DNA from: Holophagales bacterium
Lineage (GTDB): Bacteria > Acidobacteriota > Thermoanaerobaculia > Multivoradales > Multivoraceae
DNA: 64,000 nt
Direction of reading: 5' to 3'
Assembly: GCA_009845425.1 (NCBI GenBank)
Contig: VXZQ01000009.1
Coordinates: forward strand, 227,714 to 291,713
Shown here: piece after piece, positions 1 through 12,446 of the stretch
Layout of the letters: each line of letters starts with the position of its first letter
Position numbering within the stretch: the first letter of the stretch is position 1
Program-made: the position numbers and the translations under genes
Notes under the pieces: model-generated
Database searches by the model: none
Seen by the model: only the letters and a program-made list of their open reading frames with translations
Told to the model about the DNA's origin: nothing

Positions 1-2
1 GC

Positions 3-206
3 CTCAGCGCCGCCGTTCTGGCGGACGAGGGTGACGCACGACCGGAACTTTCAGTCTGTGCGCCCCTGGCTGCCTACGCGGCCGACCTCCTCGCGATCCG
101 CGGCGAGGCGATTCTGGGCGGCGCTACCCGGCAGGAACTCCTCGCTACCCATCGCGCCGTCGCCGACTGCATCGACGCCCAGGGTCTCAAGCGCTCCACA
201 CCGTAA
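3..206 (+). CDS. C-terminal fragment of an unidentified CDS cut by the window edge (…AAYAADLLAIRGEAILGGATRQELLATHRAVADCIDAQGLKRSTP*)
   Basis: Open frame from window start to TAA at 204-206, protein-like composition. Confidence 0.4.
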   Translation, partial: LSAAVLADEGDARPELSVCAPLAAYAADLLAIRGEAILGGATRQELLATHRAVADCIDAQGLKRSTP

Positions 207-343
207 TCCGTCAGCTTCTCTGCGCGTCTGCTCCTCGCAACCGGTCGCCCGTTCTTCAATGAAACCGAGCGCCTGGCAGGGCCTGCTGCTGACAGTGCGG
301 CTTAGGAGGCGAGATTGCGAACACAAATGTCCGTACTGTACGG

Positions 344-562
344 TTGAGTGCTGAACGGCCGCAGTTCATCGGGCGCGTTCGCAGGTGGGCGAGGGATCGG
401 AACCTGACAGTCCGCTTCGTCGCGTCCGAGGGGGCCGGCTCCCATGGAACGCTCTACGCCGGGCGCCGCAGGACCACCGGCAAAGACCGGAAGACGGAGA
501 TCGGCCAGGGCCTGCCCAAGAAGATGCTCGCCGATCTTGGGATCGACAGGGAGGGCTTCTAG
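344..562 (+). CDS. hicA: HicA-like mRNA interferase toxin (TTG start, possibly remnant)
   Basis: GSHGTLYAGRRRTTGKDRKTEIGQGLPKKMLADLGID resembles the HicA core; followed 8 nt later by a HicB-like frame. Confidence 0.55.
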   Translation: MSAERPQFIGRVRRWARDRNLTVRFVASEGAGSHGTLYAGRRRTTGKDRKTEIGQGLPKKMLADLGIDREGF

Positions 563-570
563 GAGAGCCG

Positions 571-990
571 ATGCCAGACGGTTACAACTATCCCGCCGAC
601 ATCCAACATGACGTTTCCCGATTTCGGATGGGGCGCCACAGGCGGTGCGACGAGAGAGGAAGCCCTGGGAGAAGCCAGGGATCTGCTGCGGGAGTTGATC
701 GCCACGGCGATACGCGAAGGCGGCGATCTGCCGGAACCGTCGTCGACCGACGAGCAGCGGTCCGTGGTGGTCCCGCCAGCGCAGATCGCCCTGAAGGCGG
801 CCCTGTACGACGCTTGGCGGCAGGCCGGGATCTCGCGGCGTCAGTTCGCCCGCGATCTCGATGTCGCCGAAAGTGAGGTACGGCGAATGCTGAATCCCGA
901 TCACGCCACCAAGGCAGCTACGATCGACCGCGCTACGCCGCCTGGGCAAGCGACTCAGCGTTTCTGTCAGCGAGGCCGCCTGCGTCGGGT
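571..990 (+). pseudogene. hicB: HicB-like antitoxin, frameshifted
   Basis: MPDGYNYPADIQHD in one frame, FPDFGWGATGGATREEALGEARDLLRELIATAIREGG…ISRRQFARDLDVAESEVRRML in another; comparison with the copy at 9377 indicates a ~23 nt deletion, then a second frame change near 930. Confidence 0.6.
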
Positions 991-1302
991 TCAGGCGCTT
1001 GCCAGAGGGCGGCGCGTGGCCTTTTCGTAAACGACCGCGGCGAGGCAGGTCAGCAGCAACGCGGACAAGGCTCCCACGAGGGCCCACCCGGTTCCACGAT
1101 TCCAGATGGCGACCTGCTGCGCGACCGCCATCGCGCCCATCACCGCGAGAACCCCGACCAGGAGGCGCAGGGACGAAGTCTGCTGAGCGGGCGTGAGCTG
1201 ACTTCCAGCCCAGAAGCAGATGGCCGACAAACCGATTGCGGCTACTGCGAACATGCGAATGAACCTTTGACATCGCTTCCTCCCTCTAGATCGCCAGATC
1301 AT
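991..1302 (-). CDS. Small hydrophobic membrane protein, unknown function
   Basis: 103 aa ORF with three hydrophobic segments; degenerate relative near 4800-5100. Confidence 0.4.
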   Translation of the reverse strand: MIWRSRGRKRCQRFIRMFAVAAIGLSAICFWAGSQLTPAQQTSSLRLLVGVLAVMGAMAVAQQVAIWNRGTGWALVGALSALLLTCLAAVVYEKATRRPLASA

Positions 1303-1600
1303 TCAGGTTGTAGTCGCGGATCACTCGCTCGAACGTCTCGTCGTTGAAGCGGAAGTCGGCCTCCAGACCGGCGAAGGGTCCGTAGGACGAACGAGGCCTT
1401 CCCTGGTCGGTGCTGCCGGCGGGCGTCGATCGCCACGACGATCACCGACGAGCGATCGAAGATGCGCCGGGCGTCGCAAACGACCTCGTCGGCTTCGACG
1501 CCCAGCGCGCCCTTCTGTCCCTCCACCGACTTGCGGCGGTGGAAGCCGAAGGTGAGCGCGCTGTAGAACACCGGGCAGTCGCCGACAAAACACCGTTCGC
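1291..1600 (-). pseudogene. Frame-disrupted remnant of a hypothetical protein ending …FAGLEADFRFNDETFERVIRDYNLNDLAI*
   Basis: Continuous protein-like sequence only recoverable by switching between minus-strand frames. Confidence 0.35.
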
Positions 1601-1758
1601 CGCGTCTCTCGCGCGCGGTACTGTGTCATACTCCATTGACATGAACACTGGGCTCCCCGCGAACGCTAAGTCCTCCACACTCCCCAGTTGCCGCGGCGTC
1701 CTTTGAGTCAGTATAGTCTCTCTTCATAATGCCTATGGACAGCGGAGCGTGACCCGCC

Positions 1759-2169
1759 ATGCCACTTCTCAAGACATATGACATCTTCCTCAGCCATGCT
1801 TGGGCTTACCACAGTGACTACTACAGCGTGCAACGCTTCCTGAACGATGCGCCCTCTTTTCGCTGGAGGAACTACTCGGTTCCTGAGCACGATCCACTTC
1901 AGCCGCACTCTCCTTTCGCGCTGAGAGAACAACTGAAGAGGCAGATTCGCCCCGTCAATGTCGTGCTGATACTGTCGGGAATGTACGTTGCTCACAGCAG
2001 CTGGATTCAGTTCGAGATCGACTTCGCCAACGCCCTCAGTAAGCCCATGATCGGCGTTCGTCCATGGGGACAACAGCGTGTACCGTTAGCCGTGAAGCAC
2101 TCAGTAAAGGAAATGGTTGGATGGCAAACCGAGTCAATCGTGAGCGCAGTACGCAGATGGGCGATCTGA
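1759..2169 (+). CDS. TIR-like (MTH538/DUF1863, ThsB-type) domain protein
   Basis: YDIFLSHAWAYHSDYYSVQRFLNDAPSFRWRNYSVPEHDPL start and W-x-x-FEIDFANALSKPMIGVRPWG match the TIR-like pattern. Confidence 0.75.
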   Translation: MPLLKTYDIFLSHAWAYHSDYYSVQRFLNDAPSFRWRNYSVPEHDPLQPHSPFALREQLKRQIRPVNVVLILSGMYVAHSSWIQFEIDFANALSKPMIGVRPWGQQRVPLAVKHSVKEMVGWQTESIVSAVRRWAI

Positions 2170-2172
2170 GCC

Positions 2173-2673
2173 ATGACGTCGTCTGCATTTCAGCAGTACC
2201 TCGAAGACCGATATCAGAATCAAGTGCGGTGGTACCGTGCGAGCGCTGCGAGGAGCAAGAGGTGGCATCGCAGATACCAAGTTGGGATCGTCGCGCTGTC
2301 CGCTGTCGTTACCGTAACGGTGGCACTAGGCCTGAATGGTGGGAGCGGTACACCTTGGCACGTCGTGTCGTTGACGACGTCGGCTTTGGTGACCGTTTTG
2401 GCCACTCTTCAGAGGACCTTGCGCTTCCACGAGAATTGGGTCGAGTACCGGACGACAGCCGAGGCTCTCCAGAAAGAACACTACTATCATCAGTTCCTTT
2501 GTGGTGAGTACGGTACCGCAGAGTCGCCAAATCAGCTGTTTGTCGAGCGAGTGGAAGAACTGATTTCCGAGCAGAATACGCTGTGGAAGGCCGGAGCGAT
2601 GATGGCAGGCCCTGCTAGTGGTCTCGACGGTAGAGCCAGGTCGGCCACGGGGCCTGGCCGAGAAGAGCAATAG
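2173..2673 (+). CDS. SLATT/DUF4231-like two-transmembrane protein
   Basis: 166 aa; two TM segments (YQVGIVALSAVVTVTVALGL; VVSLTTSALVTVLATL) then NWVEYRTTAEALQKEHYYH signature; starts 3 nt after the TIR gene stop. Confidence 0.7.
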   Translation: MTSSAFQQYLEDRYQNQVRWYRASAARSKRWHRRYQVGIVALSAVVTVTVALGLNGGSGTPWHVVSLTTSALVTVLATLQRTLRFHENWVEYRTTAEALQKEHYYHQFLCGEYGTAESPNQLFVERVEELISEQNTLWKAGAMMAGPASGLDGRARSATGPGREEQ

Positions 2674-2843
2674 GCTCATCGCATTTGGTGAAGGGCGCTT
2701 AGCGCAACTTCTGCAGGACAAGTCGAGGCCGGCTTCGGCCAGGGAGCGATCTCACTGCCCGCCGGCTTCCAGCTTGGGCCAAATCGGGTCAGCTGGAGAC
2801 TGAAGCGAAGTCCGAGTCAGGCGGAGAGATGTCCGTCCGACTA

Positions 2844-4109
2844 TCAGCCTGCCCGGTGCCGGAGGATCTCGTTCACCTTTGCCTCCGCTGGCCCGATGAC
2901 CTTCTCCTCGAGAGAGGCGACCAGTGCTTCCAAGGACTCATAGCGGTGTAGTGGTAGGACCCAAGGGTAAGCCCTGAGATCCGCGAACATGCCCCACTCG
3001 CTCTCTGAAGAGTGGATGATCGGCTGAACTGGCAACGAAGGATGGTGCGGGACGATTGCCTGTAGTTCCTGGGGGACACTCCTGGGGCTGGTGATGTCTG
3101 CGATAACAAACCTCGCCAAGTGTGCCAGTGTCGACACCGTCTCGGTCAGATTGCGGGCGCGAGGCTTCTTGAAGTCAAATAGCAGGGGAATGTAGCCAAG
3201 GCGGCGCAAGCCACTCCGCACCTCGTCGAGAATCTGTTTCCGTTCGGCCGTAAAACGTCCAAGCAAAAGGACTGCTCTAGATGTTATCGTATCGAGCGTT
3301 GCCCGGATCTCTTCGTTGTTGAGGATTAGGTAGAAGAACTGCGCCACTTGGAGCTTGTCGACTATGATATCGACCTCGTCTTCAGGGGTTATCACGAGAT
3401 TCTCCTGCCGCGTGTCCTGCAGATCAGTCTTCCACACGGAGGTCCCGAAGACCCGGCTGCCATCAAGAGTCGTGCCTTGCAGCTTCGCTCTGACTAGACT
3501 CGCGCCGGTGAGGTTGGAGGCGGTCATGTTGGCGTCAGTGAAGTCTGCATCCATAAGCAACGCATCGCTGAGGTCGGCTTCGGCGAGAATCGACCCAGCA
3601 AAGGAGCCGTCGCGAGCGTCCGCTGAACTTAAGCTCGCTCTGCGGAGGTTTGTGCCGCTACAGGCAACCAGGAGCAGGTTGGAACCGCTTAGATCCGCTA
3701 GCCGTAGGTCCGCACCGCCGAGATGGGCCAGGTTGAAGTCGCAGTCGTGCAAGAAGGCTCCTTGGAGGTTGGCGTTCTCTAAGTGGGCCCCAGGGAACTT
3801 GGCCCTGACCGCATAGACGGCGGAGAGATTTGCGCGCTGAAGGCGAACTCGCGCAAGGTTCGCATCCGACAGGTTAGCGTCTGCCAGGTTGACGCCATCC
3901 AGGGAGAGATCCCTGCCGAAGAGGGACACTCCTCGAAGATCGATGTATTCACCAGGGTTTTCCGCTCTCCAGGCGTTCCAGTACTCTCCGCCGCGTTCAA
4001 GAATGCTCAGCAGTCTTTCGACACGCGACGTATCGAGCGGTGGGTGGGATTTCGTGGCGAGGTTAATCTTCGTCACTGGGCCAACCCGGATCGTCCGTGA
4101 TCGTGACAT
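2844..4109 (-). CDS. Pentapeptide-repeat protein with C-terminal Rossmann/TIR-like domain (start at 4109 or GTG 4076)
   Basis: A(D/N)LxxAxL repeats followed by SRAVLLLGRFTAERKQILDEVRSGLRRLGYIPLLFDFKKPRARNLTETVSTLAHLARFVIADITSPRSVPQELQAIVP. Confidence 0.75.
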   Translation of the reverse strand: MSRSRTIRVGPVTKINLATKSHPPLDTSRVERLLSILERGGEYWNAWRAENPGEYIDLRGVSLFGRDLSLDGVNLADANLSDANLARVRLQRANLSAVYAVRAKFPGAHLENANLQGAFLHDCDFNLAHLGGADLRLADLSGSNLLLVACSGTNLRRASLSSADARDGSFAGSILAEADLSDALLMDADFTDANMTASNLTGASLVRAKLQGTTLDGSRVFGTSVWKTDLQDTRQENLVITPEDEVDIIVDKLQVAQFFYLILNNEEIRATLDTITSRAVLLLGRFTAERKQILDEVRSGLRRLGYIPLLFDFKKPRARNLTETVSTLAHLARFVIADITSPRSVPQELQAIVPHHPSLPVQPIIHSSESEWGMFADLRAYPWVLPLHRYESLEALVASLEEKVIGPAEAKVNEILRHRAG

Positions 4110-4629
4110 GCGTGATATCCGGAGCGTCGTGACCTTGTTGGTTCTTGAGGGATTTGATTGCACCGCAGAACTTGACTACAAAAGCCACGTTGTCGAAAGG
4201 CGGTACGATAGGTGCCACTTCGGCTCGGTCGCCGACGACACCTGAAGAGAGCAGGACGAAACGGTCGGAGGAGTTGAACTCCTTGGATAGCATGACGATT
4301 CGTTCTAGCAAAGTCGCGAGCTTCTGGTCGCCTCCACCGGGAATTCCGGTGCGGAGGAACTGGAGTATTCTCTCCATGGGGATCTCGAGATCCTCGGACA
4401 GAGCGAATATCAGTTCGGCCAAGTGTAGGGAGTCGAACTCGACGTCGTGAGTGAGGGATTTCTTCTCGAATACAGGATCGGGGTCTTCCCCAGCCCATAC
4501 GCGCTTCACGTACTCTAGGATAGGCCGATGCGCTTCAGGATCTGAGGATGGTTCGGGGGGCGGTTGTGGTTCCGGATCTGGCGCTCGACTACTGGAGAGC
4601 CAGCCGGAGAGCCGGTCAAAGATCCTCAT
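4063..4629 (-). CDS. Hypothetical protein, overlapping partner upstream of the pentapeptide-repeat gene
   Basis: ~188 aa from MRIFDRLSGW; Pro-rich linker, then a folded-looking region; stop overlaps the next gene's start. Confidence 0.55.
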   Translation of the reverse strand: MRIFDRLSGWLSSSRAPDPEPQPPPEPSSDPEAHRPILEYVKRVWAGEDPDPVFEKKSLTHDVEFDSLHLAELIFALSEDLEIPMERILQFLRTGIPGGGDQKLATLLERIVMLSKEFNSSDRFVLLSSGVVGDRAEVAPIVPPFDNVAFVVKFCGAIKSLKNQQGHDAPDITHVTITDDPGWPSDED

Positions 4630-5542
4630 GATGCGGGGCTCCTTGTTGGAGATTGGTGCCGGAGTCCCGTGAGTATAGGCCGACCTGCGGCGGCGTGTCG
4701 CTTGATTTCCCGTATAGGGCTCCGTGGAGGTTCGGCGCAGCTTTAGGGGGCGCAAGGCGGGTTTCCGAGATGGCCAGATCGTCCAGCTGCTTGTTCGGCA
4801 CAGGTTGGTCGTGAACTGACCTTCAGCCCAGAAGGAAATGGCCGAGAAACAGATTGCGGTTTCAGCGAGCAAGCGGATGGTACGAAGCGGCCGGCAGAAC
4901 GCCATGGCTACCGGATCGGCCCCACCGCTTTCGGGGCCTCCGACTCCTAGTGATAAGCTCACGTTGCGAGCAGCCGGTCCGAGGAGCGCCAAGCCGGCTG
5001 GTAGGAGCTCGCCACGCGAATCAGGATCGCCTTTGACCTCGCTTCCTCCCCCAAGTCGCCAGATCGTCAGGTTGTAGTCGCGGATCGAGGTGCCAGAGGA
5101 GAGCATCAGCCGGTAGCTTGAGGCCGAGGGCTGACCGTCGCGGACGCCGCCGCCCGACTCGGTGTTGCGCGGAACACACCCTCTCGGCTTGTCAATCGCC
5201 GAGCACGTGTTTCGGCGCGGATGGCGTTAGCCTTGCAACGGCTCGGTTGGGGCGGCCGCGGGACACTCAGTACCCATGCAAGGTGCCTAGGATCTGGCAA
5301 GAGCCGGGCAAGCCGAGACGGAGGCCTGAACCGAACACCGACATAGCGGAGCTTGCGCCGCGGCCGTCTTGCCGGCCGGGCCAGGGCCAGCAGTCACGGT
5401 CGGCAGTAGTGAGGCCGCGCCCAGCCAGGCTAGCGGTGGATCGGTTGCCGCACTTCTGAGCCCTTGATCGGGTCGACCTTTGTCCTTGATTCGAGCAGCG
5501 ATGCCGCCTGTGGGAAGGCGTCTTCTTCTCGTGGGCACAGTC

Positions 5543-7831
5543 ATGTACCGTTGGGCGATCGTGGCTCCCTTCTTCTCGACACATGGCACGCGTCGACTGT
5601 ATGGGAGCGCGGTTGCCTTGATCGTTGTGGTGGGCCTTGCGGCGGCCCAGCAACCTCGGCTGTTGGAAAGCAGGCAGCCGGACCTGGTCTTGCGGGGTGC
5701 TCTCGCGGCGAACGGAGCCTGCGAGCCGGACGCCGAGACTCTCTGCCTGAATGACGGTCGATACGAGCTGCAGGCGGACTGGCAGACCGGCGACGGCAAC
5801 AGCGGCCCAGCGAAGGTGGTGCCAAAGGCGACTAGGGATTCCGGCCTGTTCCGATTCTTCGATGCCGACAACTGGGAAGTTCTGATCAAGGTGCTGGACG
5901 GCTGCGCGGTCAACGGCCATCACTGGGTGTACGGGGCCTCCACGACGGACCTGGGCTACGAGATCCGCGTCAGAGACACAGCGACGGGCACGACTAGGGT
6001 GTATCAGAACGAGCCTGGGCGGCCAGCCCCGGCGATCACGGACGATAAGGCGTTCCCCGGCGTCTGCGAGGCCAGCGTGTCGTCGCCGATCCGTTCTCCC
6101 GACGGGAGGCTTCAGGTCACACCGGGCGAGGAACTCGCACCTGTTTCGCTGGTCGGCGCATCGGAGTCGGGCTGCGTGACGAACGGCACCTCGCTGTGCT
6201 TGGCGGACGGTCGCTTCGAGGTGAAGGTCGATTGGTCCATAGCCGGCGGAGGCGAGGGCGCCGCCAGCACGGTTCCAGGCGGTACGAACAACTCGGGCCT
6301 CTTCTACTTCTTCGAGCCGAACAACTGGGAGATGCTGATCAAGGTGCTGGACGGCTGCGCGATCAACGGCCACTACTGGGTGTACTCCGCAGCCGCCACG
6401 GACCTGGGACTGGAGATCGCCGTGACGGACACGGCAACGGGCGCCACCTGGAGGAATGAGAAGCCGCCGGGGCCGCCGGCGCCGGCCATCACGGAGGCCG
6501 AGGCGTTCCCCAACAGTTGCGAAGTGAGGCCGCTACCGGAACTGGTGTCGCCCGGGTCGATTGCCGTCGAGCGGGGCGTGTGGGAGGCCGACGTCACGCA
6601 CGACGATGTCGTCTTTCTTCGATTCGCGGCCGACTTCGACGGCGACGGTGACGATGATGTGCTCCTTGGCCCCTCGGACAACATACTCGAGCCGGCGGAG
6701 GGCGTCATTCTGATCAACAACGGGGACTTCACGTTCGAGGTCGCCGGCGGGGACCGGCCGAGGGGGGTCGTTCAACGCGAGGTTCTGATGGCGGACTTCA
6801 ACGGTGACGGCAGGAACGACTTCTTCATCGCCGACCACGGCTACGATGTGGATCCGTTTCCCGGGTGGTACAACCAACTGCTGCTTTGGACGGCGAACGG
6901 CTACCTGGACGCGACCGACCGGCTCCCGTCGGATCCGGACGGCTTCACGCACAACGCCGCGGCCGGCGACATCGACGGCGACGGCGATGTCGACATCCTT
7001 GTAGCCAACGCCTTGTACAAATCCCGGTATCCGCCGCCGTACTTCCTGATGAACGATGGTGCTGCCAACTTCGTCCTGGACGAGAGCAGGCTGCCGGGAA
7101 CCTGGGCACACTCCGAATCTCCGCCGCACTGGGCTCTTTGGCCCTGGGCGGTCGAGTTGGCGGACCTCGACGCGGACGGCCATCTGGATCTGCTCGCGGG
7201 CGCCAGAGGCGAAGACGGGGGCGACCAGTCCTACGTGTACTGGGGTTCGGCGGCGGGGCGGTATCGGGAAGACGACGTGACGGTGCTGCCGACGCCGGGC
7301 TTCTTCATTGCCTATGGTGGCGGGCAGGTGGTTTCCACCTCGGTTCATGACTTCGACGGCGATGGCCGGCCTGACGTTCTGCTCGGCGGTTACGACGACG
7401 GGTGGTTCCAGGAAGAACGCGGGCCGTGGAGGGGAGTCCAATTGCTGGTGAACCGCGGCGGACGGGTGTTCGTTGACGAGACCTCACGCCGGCTCGGCCC
7501 GAGCGCCTGGTCTGCGGGGGAAGGCTGGCACTGGCAACATCTTTTCTTCGATTTCAATGGTGACGGAACGGTGGACATCGTTCCTCAGGACTTCGATGTG
7601 GACCATGGCACGAACGTGCTGGCATGGCTGAACGACGGAACGGGGCACTACACGGTTCTGAGTACGACCGAGTTCGATGACATCGAGGCTCTACGCCGAT
7701 TTGCCTACGGAGTGATAGTCCGCGCCGGAGGGAGCTTCAAGCACCTCGACTTTCAGGGCGACGGCACGCGCCTGACGGCGCTTGCGGGAGTTGTGGTCGA
7801 GGGTGCCGTGATTCGGCCGCCTCAGTACTGA
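5543..7831 (+). CDS. Secreted FG-GAP/VCBS repeat protein with duplicated N-terminal domain
   Basis: Signal-like N-terminus; two copies of CLxDGRxEx…LIKVLDGCAxNGHxWVY; at least six DxDGDGxxDxL repeats. Confidence 0.85.
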   Translation: MYRWAIVAPFFSTHGTRRLYGSAVALIVVVGLAAAQQPRLLESRQPDLVLRGALAANGACEPDAETLCLNDGRYELQADWQTGDGNSGPAKVVPKATRDSGLFRFFDADNWEVLIKVLDGCAVNGHHWVYGASTTDLGYEIRVRDTATGTTRVYQNEPGRPAPAITDDKAFPGVCEASVSSPIRSPDGRLQVTPGEELAPVSLVGASESGCVTNGTSLCLADGRFEVKVDWSIAGGGEGAASTVPGGTNNSGLFYFFEPNNWEMLIKVLDGCAINGHYWVYSAAATDLGLEIAVTDTATGATWRNEKPPGPPAPAITEAEAFPNSCEVRPLPELVSPGSIAVERGVWEADVTHDDVVFLRFAADFDGDGDDDVLLGPSDNILEPAEGVILINNGDFTFEVAGGDRPRGVVQREVLMADFNGDGRNDFFIADHGYDVDPFPGWYNQLLLWTANGYLDATDRLPSDPDGFTHNAAAGDIDGDGDVDILVANALYKSRYPPPYFLMNDGAANFVLDESRLPGTWAHSESPPHWALWPWAVELADLDADGHLDLLAGARGEDGGDQSYVYWGSAAGRYREDDVTVLPTPGFFIAYGGGQVVSTSVHDFDGDGRPDVLLGGYDDGWFQEERGPWRGVQLLVNRGGRVFVDETSRRLGPSAWSAGEGWHWQHLFFDFNGDGTVDIVPQDFDVDHGTNVLAWLNDGTGHYTVLSTTEFDDIEALRRFAYGVIVRAGGSFKHLDFQGDGTRLTALAGVVVEGAVIRPPQY

Positions 7832-7894
7832 TCTGAAGACAAGTCGAAGAACTCGAACACGGACGACGCAACTCGGGCCGAGAAAGCCGCCTGA

Positions 7895-8105
7895 TCTATG
7901 GTTGAGGAGGAGGTTTCCACGATCTCGAGGAACAGGAGCCGGCACTCGGCAGAGTGGCGGCAGCAAATGGTGGATCTGGTCCGGTACGGGGCGCAGCCCG
8001 GACCGACGCGCTCGTGCGTCCGAGCCGTCAGGGCGGACGATCCGGAAATGGGTCGCGCAGGCGGGTCGGCACAATGGCCACCGCAGCCAGCCGCCTCTCA
8101 ATCGA
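7895..8105 (+). pseudogene. Remnant of IS3-type OrfA transposase
   Basis: RHSAEWRQQMVDLVR in one frame and SGRTIRKWVAQAGR in the next; no full transposase. Confidence 0.55.
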
Positions 8106-9054
8106 CGGATGGCGAATCGTCGTTTCCTTTACTTGATTCACCCAACAGGTTCTCAACGTCGGCCACGAGTTCACTCAACAGTTCGTCGTCGGTCCAGTAG
8201 CGCCCGTGGCTGAACGGATTCCAGTTGGTAACCAAGCCGCCCGCGTTCACTCGTTTGTCGAAGTAAACGGCGTTGTTGTAGGCGTTGCTCAAGGGCTTTA
8301 GTGGCCAGCCCAGTACGTCGTCGTCGTCGAAGAAGTTCTTCCATCTGAAGTCGTAGCCGTACTGATCCGTCGCGATCGGAACAATCTTTGGCTCGGGGAA
8401 GGAGGCGACGAAGATAGGGATGTTGCAGCCGGTTGTGTAGAGGAAGCGCAGCTTTCTGAGTCGGAGAAACGCGTCGACGGAATTCGCGTCGGCGTTCTCC
8501 GCCCTTGCCGCGTCAGCGCCACCATCGGCCTCGCTCGTCGACCCGTCAGCGGCCCACACGCCACGGGTACATCTCACGGCGTCCCGTCTGTACACGCTCT
8601 GGGCGTCCCAGATGTAGTTGGAGATTACGTGGCCACCTAGCGACTGGGCAATGACAACAACCGGGAGGTTGGGATTCTCTGTCTCGTCGTAGATCGCCTG
8701 CAGTTCCGCTTGGATGATCTGCTGCACCCTTGCGTAGGGACTACCCTCGCGGTGTGCGTTCCGCTCGATGCCGGCGGCATCGGAGAAACCAAAGAGAACG
8801 AACCTCCGAAGCCTGGTCCAATCCAGGCTCCTCTTCTGCATGCTCTCCCAGACTCGATCCTGGTTGTCCTGAAGCACCTTCTGGTAGTGGACTGGTCGGA
8901 AGAGGACCTTCTCCCAGCTCTTGCCGAGGCGGCGCTGGATGGCCTTCTTGAGCTTGTCGGCGAACTTACTGTTGACGGGCCCCATGCCGTGTATCGGTAG
9001 CAGGGCGACCTTCTGCGAAGAGTTGATGGTCATGACATCTCGTTTCTTGGGCAT
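8098..9054 (-). CDS. Alpha/beta hydrolase / lipase-like protein
   Basis: LLPIHGMG and VVVIAQSLGGHVISNY (GxSxG-like) motifs; no signal peptide. Confidence 0.6.
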   Translation of the reverse strand: MPKKRDVMTINSSQKVALLPIHGMGPVNSKFADKLKKAIQRRLGKSWEKVLFRPVHYQKVLQDNQDRVWESMQKRSLDWTRLRRFVLFGFSDAAGIERNAHREGSPYARVQQIIQAELQAIYDETENPNLPVVVIAQSLGGHVISNYIWDAQSVYRRDAVRCTRGVWAADGSTSEADGGADAARAENADANSVDAFLRLRKLRFLYTTGCNIPIFVASFPEPKIVPIATDQYGYDFRWKNFFDDDDVLGWPLKPLSNAYNNAVYFDKRVNAGGLVTNWNPFSHGRYWTDDELLSELVADVENLLGESSKGNDDSPSVD

Positions 9055-9249
9055 TCAGTACGGTCGGCTGAAGCGGGCCTGAGCGACTCTCCTCACAACG
9101 CGTGCTCGTAGCAGTGCGGGCTGGCGGTTTGCGCTGTGATCGACCGACGACGTTGTGCGCTCGCGGCCTGGGGACATTCTACGGAGCCAAGCCCAGAGCG
9201 GCCGGTTGCCGATGACAACCGGCTATCAGCACCACGGCGTAGGAGGCGA

Positions 9250-9646
9250 GGTTTCGAGTACAGATGCTCGCTTGTAGGCCGAGCGTCTAGCGGCCGGCAG
9301 TTGGATGGGCGCGTTGGGTGAGGGACCGGATGCCTGCCGATCTCGGGCCGACAAGACCGACTGCTAGGTGAATCCGATGTCAGACCGCTGCAGCTATGCC
9401 GACGATATCCAACGCGACGAGGACGGCCGGCATGTCGTCGTGTTTCCGGACTTCAGTTGGGGAGCCACAGACGGTGCGACCAGAGGAGGCGCTTGCCGAA
9501 GCCAAGGATCTGCTGCGGGAGTTGATCGCCACGACGCTACGCGAAGGCGGCGAACTGCCCGGGCCGTCGCCGACCGGCGAGGACCGGCCCCTCGTCGTTG
9601 CAACCTGGGCAAGCGACTCGCCTTGGCCGCCAGCGAGGCAGCCTGA
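9250..9646 (+). pseudogene. Second degenerate hicAB-like copy
   Basis: Aligns with 305-990: shared upstream TAGGAGGCGAG, most of HicA deleted, HicB start at 9377 (MSDRCSYADDIQRDEDGRHVVVFPDFSWGA) with frame changes and loss of the HTH region before LGKRLALAASEAA*. Confidence 0.6.
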
Positions 9647-9702
9647 GTGGGTTCCCTGCTGGCGAATGACGCCTGGACGGCTAACGGCCTGACGCCGACT
9701 CG

Positions 9703-11136
9703 TCAGCCGGACGCTTGAAAGGCCCATAGCGCGCTTCGGGTTCGGATGTACATTGTCGTCCCGTCGATCGCCGGCGTCGCCGTGGCCAGGTCGTCGAGGT
9801 CGGAGACGGCTAGCGGCTCCAGAGAGCCGTCGCTCGGCAGCACGACGAGCTTGCCAGATCTCGAGAGCAGGTAGAACTTGTCGTCAGCCACGATCGGTGA
9901 GGCGTAGAAGCTGTCGATGGCTCCCTTCAGCCGGCTCTGCTCGATCAGCTTTCCCGTCGCCGCATGGAGCGTCGTCGTGATACCGCCGTCGTCGACCATG
10001 AGGAGCACTCCGTCGTCGACGATCGGCGACGGGAGCTGCGGGATCTTGCGGTGGTAGGTCCACCGTACGTGACTGGCCGTGAAATCCCCTCGCAGGCCAG
10101 CCTTCGGTAGCTCGACGGCGAGGATTCCGTTGCGGCTGTCGAGCGCCGCCTGGAAGTACGTCCAGTCGTCTTCGTCGAGGCGGCCGTCGCTCGCCAGATC
10201 GAAGAAGGAGAGGGAGCTGCGAACCAGGCCCTCCGGCGCCTCCTCCTTGGAGATCATCCCGTCCCCGTCGCCGTCGTGCGCGGCGACGACGTCCGGGAAG
10301 GGCTCGAGTTGGACGTGACGGCCTTCTTCGTTCAGGGGCATGGCGTAGCCGTTGATGAAGAGGACACCGTCCTCGATCGCCGGCGTCGACTTCATCTCGA
10401 ACGAGAGACCGCGCACCCACCAGAGCCGCTCGCCCGTCTCGGCCGAATAGCTGGTGAGAAAGAACGAACCCGGCACGACGACCTGGAGTTCGCCGCCGTC
10501 GGGATGGTGGAGGACGGGCGTCGAATGGCCGCTTGTGGCGGCAGGCCGCTCGGTGCGCCATGCCAGTTCGCCGGACCCGGCGTTCACGGCCAGGACGTGG
10601 GAGCCCTGCTGCTGGTCGACCACGAGAACCACGTTGCCCGCGGCGAGGATCGGCGAGGCGCCCATGCCGTAGATGTTGTCGAAGGGGCCGAGCGGGTGGC
10701 GCCAGAGTTCTTCGCCGTCGACGGAGTAGCAGAGAAGACCGAAGTCGCCGAAGAAGACCCAGACGCGCTCGCCGTCGGTGACGGCGGACGGCGACGCCGG
10801 TCCGTTGCGGTTGTCGAGGGTCTCGATCCGCGGCCTCGGAGCCTTGCGCCGCCAGACTTCCGAGCCCGTCTCGCGATCGAGGGCGATGGTGTAGAGGGCG
10901 TCGCCTTCCGAGGCCGTCAGAAAGATCCGGTCCGCGCTCAGGACCGGCGACGAGTCGCCGGCCGGGAGCTCGGTCCGCCAGAGGAGGTTGCGGTCGGGTC
11001 CCACCTCGACCGGCAGGGCGCCCGCCTCGATGGCGCCGCCGCCGTTCGGCCCCCGGAATCGCGACCACTCGGCGGTCTCGGCCGTGGCGAGTGAGGACAA
11101 TGCAAGGCCGCTGAGGAGCGTTAGCGCGGCAGACAC
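9703..11136 (-). CDS. PQQ-like beta-propeller protein with EF-hand insert (GTG start)
   Basis: WSRFRGPNGGG, repeated LxAxxxxTGExxW; DGDGDGMISKEE and DLASDGRLDEDDW. Confidence 0.8.
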   Translation of the reverse strand: MSAALTLLSGLALSSLATAETAEWSRFRGPNGGGAIEAGALPVEVGPDRNLLWRTELPAGDSSPVLSADRIFLTASEGDALYTIALDRETGSEVWRRKAPRPRIETLDNRNGPASPSAVTDGERVWVFFGDFGLLCYSVDGEELWRHPLGPFDNIYGMGASPILAAGNVVLVVDQQQGSHVLAVNAGSGELAWRTERPAATSGHSTPVLHHPDGGELQVVVPGSFFLTSYSAETGERLWWVRGLSFEMKSTPAIEDGVLFINGYAMPLNEEGRHVQLEPFPDVVAAHDGDGDGMISKEEAPEGLVRSSLSFFDLASDGRLDEDDWTYFQAALDSRNGILAVELPKAGLRGDFTASHVRWTYHRKIPQLPSPIVDDGVLLMVDDGGITTTLHAATGKLIEQSRLKGAIDSFYASPIVADDKFYLLSRSGKLVVLPSDGSLEPLAVSDLDDLATATPAIDGTTMYIRTRSALWAFQASG

Positions 11137-11137
11137 T

Positions 11138-11201
11138 CCAGAAGCCGGCGCTCTGCGCCGGATGCCGGCCAGAAGGCCGGCGCACCGACAGACGCACCCA
11201 G
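11138..11201. repeat. GGTGCGC palindromic repeat copy
   Basis: GCCGGCCAGAAGGCCGGCGCACCGACAG…GCACCCAG plus second palindrome GCCGGCGCTCTGCGCCGG. Confidence 0.85.
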
Positions 11202-11219
11202 TCTCTGGCGTTAGTCGCT

Positions 11220-12446
11220 TCAAAGCAGATCGCCGCCGCACGCGGAAGCACAGGTGCCGTGCGCCTCGAACGCCTGCACGACGTTCTTGCCGGTGCGCCA
11301 GCGATGGACCTCGTCCGGCCCGTCGACCAGACGCTGCGCGCGGACGGCGCGATACCAGCCGGCCAGCGGCGTGTCCATGCTGTAGCCCAGGGCGCCGTGG
11401 AGCTGGAGCGCTGTGTCGACCACCTGATGCACCATGTTGGCGAGGAAGACCTTGGCGATGCCGTTCTCGTTGCGCAGGTCCATGCCGTTCTCCGCCTTGT
11501 AGGCGATGTGGAGCAGCATGAGCCGGGCCTTGTAGAGCTCGGCGGCGCAGTCGGCGAGCATCCAGCGAACCCCCTGGCGGTCAGCGAGCCGCTTGCCGAA
11601 GGTCACCCGTTTCACGGCGTGCCCGACGGCGAGGTCGAGTGCGCGCTGCGCCCTCGCCACGTTGTGCATGCCGTGGCGCAGCCGCCCGTAGGCGAGGCGG
11701 TGCTGACCCATCGCGAAGCCCTGGCCGCGGCCGCCGAGCAGGTTCTCCTTCGGGACGATCAGGTTCTCGATACGGATCTCCGAGTGCGAGCCTCCGAGTT
11801 TCAGGCCGAGTTCGGTGTGCGGCTGCATCGTCTCGATGTCGCGGATGATCCGGTAGCCGGGGTTCGGCAGTTCGACGAGGAATGTCGAGAACTGCCGGTG
11901 GCGGGCCACGTCGGGATCGGTCTTCGCCATGACCAGGGCGACGTCGGCGACGCTCGCGGAGGAGCTGAACCACTTCTCACCGTTCAGCACGTAGTTGTCG
12001 CCGTCGAGAACGGCAGAGGTCTGCATGCCGGTGGCGTCGGCGCCGGCGGCCCTCTCGGTCATCGAGTAGCAGATGCGCTTCTCCCCCGCCAGCAGCGGCT
12101 TCAGGAAGCGTTCCTTCTGGTCCTCGGTGCCATTCTCGAGCAGCGTCAGCATGGTCGCGTCGTCGGGACCCTGGGTGTTGAGGGAGAGCGCTCCGAGGAA
12201 GCTCTCGCCGAGTTCCATCTGGACCAGCGCGTTGGCCAGCGGCTTCAGACCCATGCCGCCGTGTTCCTCCGGAATGAACGGGCACCACAGCCCCTGCGAC
12301 CTCGCCTTCTTGCGGAGCCCGGCCAGCACCTCGTCGAAGTTCTCCGGAGTGCATCCCTCTTCGGCCGGGATGCACTCGTTCTGAACGAAATCGCGCACCT
12401 TGGCGCGCACCGCCTTGGTTTCTGCCGGAATCTCGAAATCGATCAT
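11220..12446 (-). CDS. Acyl-CoA dehydrogenase
   Basis: ICYSMTERAAGAD, GxKWFSSSASVADVALVMAKT, QLHGALGYSMDTPLAGWYRAVRAQRLVDGPDEVHR. Confidence 0.92.
   Translation of the reverse strand: MIDFEIPAETKAVRAKVRDFVQNECIPAEEGCTPENFDEVLAGLRKKARSQGLWCPFIPEEHGGMGLKPLANALVQMELGESFLGALSLNTQGPDDATMLTLLENGTEDQKERFLKPLLAGEKRICYSMTERAAGADATGMQTSAVLDGDNYVLNGEKWFSSSASVADVALVMAKTDPDVARHRQFSTFLVELPNPGYRIIRDIETMQPHTELGLKLGGSHSEIRIENLIVPKENLLGGRGQGFAMGQHRLAYGRLRHGMHNVARAQRALDLAVGHAVKRVTFGKRLADRQGVRWMLADCAAELYKARLMLLHIAYKAENGMDLRNENGIAKVFLANMVHQVVDTALQLHGALGYSMDTPLAGWYRAVRAQRLVDGPDEVHRWRTGKNVVQAFEAHGTCASACGGDLL

Follow-up and report, generated by a model that had tools for sequence, protein, structure and literature searches.

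The locus described here lies near the start of the window, by which we mean the whole stretch of 64,000 nucleotides analyzed from a Holophagales bacterium (contig VXZQ01000009.1), and consists of two adjacent genes, the first encoding a ThsB-type TIR protein and the second a SLATT_1/DUF4231 protein with two predicted membrane helices (Table 1). Both reading frames are intact and begin with ATG, and only 3 nt separate the stop of the TIR gene from the start of the SLATT gene, so the two-gene, operon-like arrangement proposed in a preliminary description of this DNA is borne out.

Table 1. Features of the TIR–SLATT locus and of low-GC genes nearby, in window coordinates.
Feature	Position	Strand	Basis or remark
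Sigma-70-like promoter candidate, TTGAGT-16-CATAAT	1703..1730	+	28 nt before TIR start; consensus scan
ThsB-type TIR protein, 136 aa	1759..2169	+	PF08937; PADLOC ThsB; phrog_6988 (E=5e-31); model resembles EcThsB and other TIR folds
E86 codon, putative catalytic glutamate	2014..2016	+	Position from sequence; no variation among 45 aligned relatives
Putative membrane effector of the SLATT_1/DUF4231 family, two TM helices, 166 aa	2173..2673	+	NF033634; PF14015; phrog_7395; AlphaFold
First predicted SLATT membrane helix, residues 36-55	2278..2337	+	Hydropathy; AlphaFold helix
Second predicted SLATT membrane helix, residues 61-83	2353..2421	+	Hydropathy; AlphaFold helix
SLATT C-terminal non-membrane helices, candidate sensing/contact surface	2422..2586	+	Conservation over 44 SLATTs
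Pentapeptide-repeat protein	2844..4163	-	GC 0.58, low like the pair; C-terminal domain of ~130 aa matched no family
Low-GC gene, 188 aa	4063..4629	-	Weak acyl-carrier-like match
Low-GC gene, 318 aa	8098..9054	-	Weak alpha/beta-hydrolase matches only

The TIR reading frame matches the Pfam family ThsB_TIR (PF08937; E=7.4e-14; score 52 bits, cut-off 21) and the PADLOC ThsB profile (E=1.6e-11). Its AlphaFold model, made from an alignment of 45 rows (pLDDT 83), resembles solved folds of the TIR/deoxyribosyltransferase kind, including EcThsB (8wcf), a B. cereus TIR (8fz9), the ThsB-Tad3 complex (9b7d), and EcThsB2 (8v6t), which confirms the fold first suggested for this protein. In the 45 aligned sequences, F10, S12, H13, and W82 are invariant or near-invariant, and the glutamate of the FEID motif, E86, is present throughout; we take E86 to be catalytic from what is known of the TIR/ThsB family. 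The protein therefore carries two features of Thoeris systems, a TIR of the ThsB type and a conserved glutamate of the putatively catalytic type.

The second reading frame matches the NCBIfam family SLATT_1 (NF033634; E=7.1e-35) and DUF4231 (PF14015; E=1.6e-17). Its AlphaFold model (pLDDT 90.5) is all-helical: a long N-terminal helix runs into the membrane and is followed by a second membrane helix and then by non-membrane helices, and hydropathy gives the same two-helix topology, in agreement with the original assignment. No convincing solved relative was found by sequence or by fold, and coiled-coil look-alikes such as Vipp1 (best E=0.42) were judged not meaningful. Across 44 SLATT proteins, nearly all of them TIR-linked, the strongest conservation falls outside the membrane helices: at Y9, R13, Q17, and W20 on the N-terminal side, and at W89, Y92, R93, E97, E128, and W138, the larger share of the highly conserved residues, in the C-terminal helices. 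The two invariant residues, R93 and E128, are both kept in the window protein. The preliminary description had stated that this protein lacks a ligand-sensing domain; none was recognized, nor was a ligand pocket in the sequence or in fold comparisons with solved structures, although the conserved non-membrane helices may themselves be the sensor. Such a pattern would fit a sensor or contact surface that is part of SLATT itself, but may instead reflect folding; the C-terminal helices may lie on the cytosolic side and have the sensing role. Several SLATT partners in Proteobacteria are double-length, and the two profiled correspond to SLATT_3 plus SLATT_1.

The pair stands out from its surroundings in composition. 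Its GC content (0.558) is below that of every 915-bp segment past 4.7 kb (mean 0.676, sd 0.028, minimum 0.575), and its GC3 is 0.64, versus 0.90 for a housekeeping gene. Neither gene has a second match in its own genome. In six other genomes of the genus, the TIR relatives sit apart from the window TIR on the tree and have 8xMP partners; the forks around the window TIR are open, and its exact place is not fixed. Both proteins belong to families of phage proteins (phrog_6988 and phrog_7395). Horizontal acquisition of the pair is likely. No recognized defense or phage gene lies next to it among the five nearby ORFs that were profiled, and no integrase or phage structural gene was recognized among the listed ORFs of the window; the window has no tRNA, and positions 1-12000 have no tandem repeats. 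The consensus scan that yielded the promoter candidate found two promoter-like sites, versus 0.4 expected. The low-GC genes for the 188- and 318-aa proteins (Table 1) are perhaps part of the same acquired patch.

Pairing of this kind recurs in other genomes. A search of IMG/VR used a profile (A2) for which the window TIR was combined with 13 relatives of the same phylum, none of these 13 having a SLATT neighbor. In the 38 phage and prophage loci recovered, the neighbor of the TIR gene was SLATT in 28, caspase in five, and 8xMP (PF24838) in three, with none seen in two; since no SLATT-linked TIR other than that of the window entered the profile, the proportion of 28/38 was not created by the query. 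The GTDB genomes were searched with a tighter profile (A3) built mostly from SLATT-linked TIRs, so that the proportions among the resulting 80 loci (46 SLATT, 10 caspase, seven 8xMP, and 17 other or none) are biased toward SLATT and should not be read as prevalence. In the two sets together, the 74 SLATT genes (28 from IMG/VR and 46 from GTDB) without exception share the strand of the TIR gene and lie within 650 bp of it, and the loci come from Bacillota, Pseudomonadota, Bacteroidota, Aquificota, Chloroflexota, Planctomycetota, and archaea. Of 396 genomes from the phylum to which the window belongs, only seven, its own among them, have a match to the window SLATT; given this rarity, chance adjacency of TIR and SLATT was rejected as an explanation for the 28/38 and 46/80 loci. 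Scanned on its own against viral sequences, the window TIR gave no matches. The TIR fold, the SLATT match, and the co-occurrence on which the earlier reading had been made to depend were all found.

The gene order varies. In the window and in loci L033, L062, and L078, TIR precedes SLATT; in the other layout, mostly from Firmicutes prophages, SLATT is upstream. The closest look-alike of the window layout (L062:1001-1450, a Deltaproteobacteria MAG) has a frame break near the TIR start, for which real decay and an assembly error are both possible. Among 52 loci with SLATT upstream, 46 (L023:3734-3958 on the minus strand, L025, L027, L028, L034, and 41 more) have a PGDYG-like phage ORF of about 60-105 aa on the opposite strand, between SLATT and TIR or overlapping their ends; in the remaining six, SLATT and TIR are directly adjacent (-3 to 39 bp). 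The PGDYG-like gene is absent from every caspase-, 8xMP-, or TIR-first locus in the set. In L023, its start and that of the TIR gene are divergent and 43 bp apart, and in phage SP197 it is convergent to the TIR gene and beside the integrase; Javan365 also carries it next to the integrase, and there neither TIR nor SLATT is annotated in the vicinity. Members of the family are present in 822 of the 50,697 phage records, and many of these phages appear to be virulent. The gene could serve as an off-switch or as a trigger, or could simply be a hitch-hiker in an integrase-side cargo hotspot. It is quite unlikely, in our estimate, that the prophage loci are three-gene modules in which the widespread PGDYG-like protein of ~65-80 aa would be a dedicated off-switch or trigger and SLATT, standing alone, the receptor of a TIR messenger, with the window as a switch-less version. 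The passage on TIR–SLATT neighborhoods in an earlier account (PMC9503650) mentions HTH and metallopeptidase neighbors and not the PGDYG-like gene, and the term PGDYG appears nowhere in that paper; this association may be the more novel part of the present findings.

The position occupied by SLATT is filled by other effectors beside close relatives of the same TIRs. In L140, a TIR 63% identical to that of SLATT-linked L108 adjoins a type I ThsA (SIR2 + STALD; PADLOC ThsA, E=4e-193); in L121, a TIR 63% identical to that of SLATT-linked L105 adjoins a caspase; and in L065, a TIR 68% identical to that of SLATT-linked L061 adjoins 8xMP. On the TIR tree, the effector labels are clustered yet have been swapped repeatedly (33 changes, versus 52.7 in shuffles), and SLATT-linked L105 sits inside a caspase-linked clade. 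Such exchange indicates that SLATT fills a swappable effector slot and that the TIR is a Thoeris-type module; the proposal of a Thoeris-like layout is upheld by the occurrence of the same TIR subfamily beside both ThsA and type IV-like caspases.

Further partners of this TIR subfamily were also observed. The TIR + 8xMP (PF24838) pair is recurrent (L009, L010, L011, L013, L014, L015, L016, L017, L019, and L022, and also L045, L057, L059, L065, L080, L104, L109, L126, L130, and L131), with a second ThsB-like TIR upstream in L015, L016, and L022, and is a candidate sister system with a multi-TM partner. In L067, a Methanomicrobiales MAG, a channel-like membrane protein with TrkA_N and RyR domains (4446-6341, plus strand; PF02026, E=2.7e-11) starts 44 bp downstream of the TIR gene, a striking partner given the link between cADPR and the ryanodine receptors of animals. 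TIRs in L063, L083, and L116 adjoin TPR-S (PF20308) proteins, and neighbors in L102 and L111, which are unprofiled, resemble TPR-S by look.

We consider it reasonably probable that the TIR–SLATT pair is a minimal Thoeris-like anti-phage module. By analogy with Thoeris TIRs, which make ADPR-type signals, we infer that the TIR would act as both the phage sensor and an NAD+-cleaving enzyme, producing a diffusible ADP-ribose-derived messenger upon infection. This messenger would activate the adjacent SLATT protein, probably via its conserved non-membrane helices; the membrane protein probably opens in response, and a SLATT oligomer would form a pore that permeabilizes the inner membrane, so that infection is aborted. 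The ready exchange of unrelated effectors favors such a diffusible signal over bespoke contact. Counted against the module is the antisense gene between SLATT and TIR in most prophage loci, which means that the two are not always in one operon, as well as the fact that SLATT has neither a solved relative nor a recognizable ligand pocket.

That missing pocket would also suit a model in which direct contact joins TIR to SLATT in a membrane complex, SLATT anchoring the TIR or sensing, for example, membrane damage, and the killing step being NAD+ depletion through TIR oligomerization in place of a diffusible signal. The genes are adjacent, and in relatives they often overlap or stand only 3-4 nt apart. 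The distances among TIRs and among SLATTs correlate (Mantel r=0.34, permutation maximum 0.22, n=43), as would be expected of co-adapted partners, though mere linkage gives the same result. TIRs 63-68% identical to SLATT-linked ones nevertheless pair with unrelated soluble and membrane effectors, an exchange that specific contact would hinder, and we regard direct contact as unlikely. The signal could also have the opposite sign, with a basal TIR product keeping SLATT closed until its depletion by phage frees the effector, or the pair could be a plain toxin-antitoxin unit. There is precedent for silencing of a 2TM effector by the signals of Panoptes and mini-Cas10 systems (PMC12657218, PMC12657230); known ThsB-type TIRs act by activation, however, the conserved residues of the TIRs resemble those of activating Thoeris TIRs, and no inhibitory case that joins a TIR to a 2TM protein was found, so that we hold these readings to be highly improbable.

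The remaining alternative concerns this genome in particular, in which the pair could be decayed or silent cargo of no present function. Its low GC and GC3 and the lack of a recognized defense island around it fit this view, and the low-GC patch with no recognized defense or phage neighbor also counts against the module reading, in that the pair may be inactive in the Holophagales host. Both frames are nevertheless intact, all invariant TIR residues and the invariant SLATT residues are kept, and a promoter-like site is present, which makes silent cargo very unlikely.

Signaling by TIR proteins whose effectors can be exchanged is among the central themes of bacterial immunity. If the module functions as a signal-gated pair, TIR–SLATT would be a very small membrane effector system that lacks a separate sensor domain and occurs widely, in gut prophages as well as in bacteria and archaea, and it would open the question of how an ADPR signal is read by a 2TM helix bundle. 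With the window locus, a distant lineage joins this kind, and the pair appears to have been acquired by a genus in which the other TIRs of the same family have a different membrane partner.

The novelty implied by the preliminary description does not hold, as conserved TIR–SLATT neighborhoods in Firmicute phages (Javan281, SN10), and the prediction of an ADPr-gated effector, are already present in PMC9503650 (Viruses 2022;14:1977). In Staphylococcus phage SP197, the TIR (gp50) and DUF4231 (gp51) genes are likewise side by side. With its adjacent and recurrent TIR and SLATT genes, the window pair belongs to this published kind, for which no experimental test was found in the literature searched. 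It shares with the phage pairs a TIR beside a 2TM SLATT and the same predicted logic of a membrane effector regulated by an ADPr derivative; unlike them, it appears to be chromosomal, with no phage genes recognized among the listed ORFs, and is found in an unrelated high-GC lineage, with TIR first, a 3-nt gap, and no PGDYG gene.

The TIRs of Thoeris types I, II, and IV produce 3'cADPR, His-ADPR, and N7-cADPR, respectively, each for an effector encoded in its own operon (PMC12847820). The only neighbor of this sort in the window is SLATT_1/DUF4231; because SIR2-SLOG, TM-macro, and caspase proteins are absent beside the TIR, the pair is classed as Thoeris-like and not as type I, II, or IV. With type I (ThsB and a ThsA with SIR2-SLOG/STALD), it shares the ThsB_TIR family, and the TIR subfamily also occurs beside ThsA in L140, but the window effector is a 166-aa membrane protein with neither SIR2 nor SLOG/STALD. 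A membrane-perturbing effector is proposed both here and for type II (TIR and TM-macro ThsA, His-ADPR), yet the window pair has no macro domain, and at the site presumed equivalent to the active-site tyrosine of type II ThsBs (PMC11204291), the window TIR family has phenylalanine (F10). Caspase-linked TIRs like those of type IV, which pairs a TIR with a caspase-like protease that responds to N7-cADPR (PMC12847820), intermix with SLATT-linked TIRs on the tree, although the window pair has no protease. A Thoeris type III is named, without its parts, in PMC12390725, and no definition of its effector was found in the literature searched; it could coincide with the TIR–SLATT or the TIR–8xMP pair. 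Finally, the RT-SLATT/DRT systems, RADAR variants, and SMODS/SLOG systems resemble the window locus in having a SLATT 2TM protein as the predicted effector, but differ in its partner: a ThsB TIR in the window, as opposed to a reverse transcriptase, a nucleotidyltransferase, or a SLOG protein.
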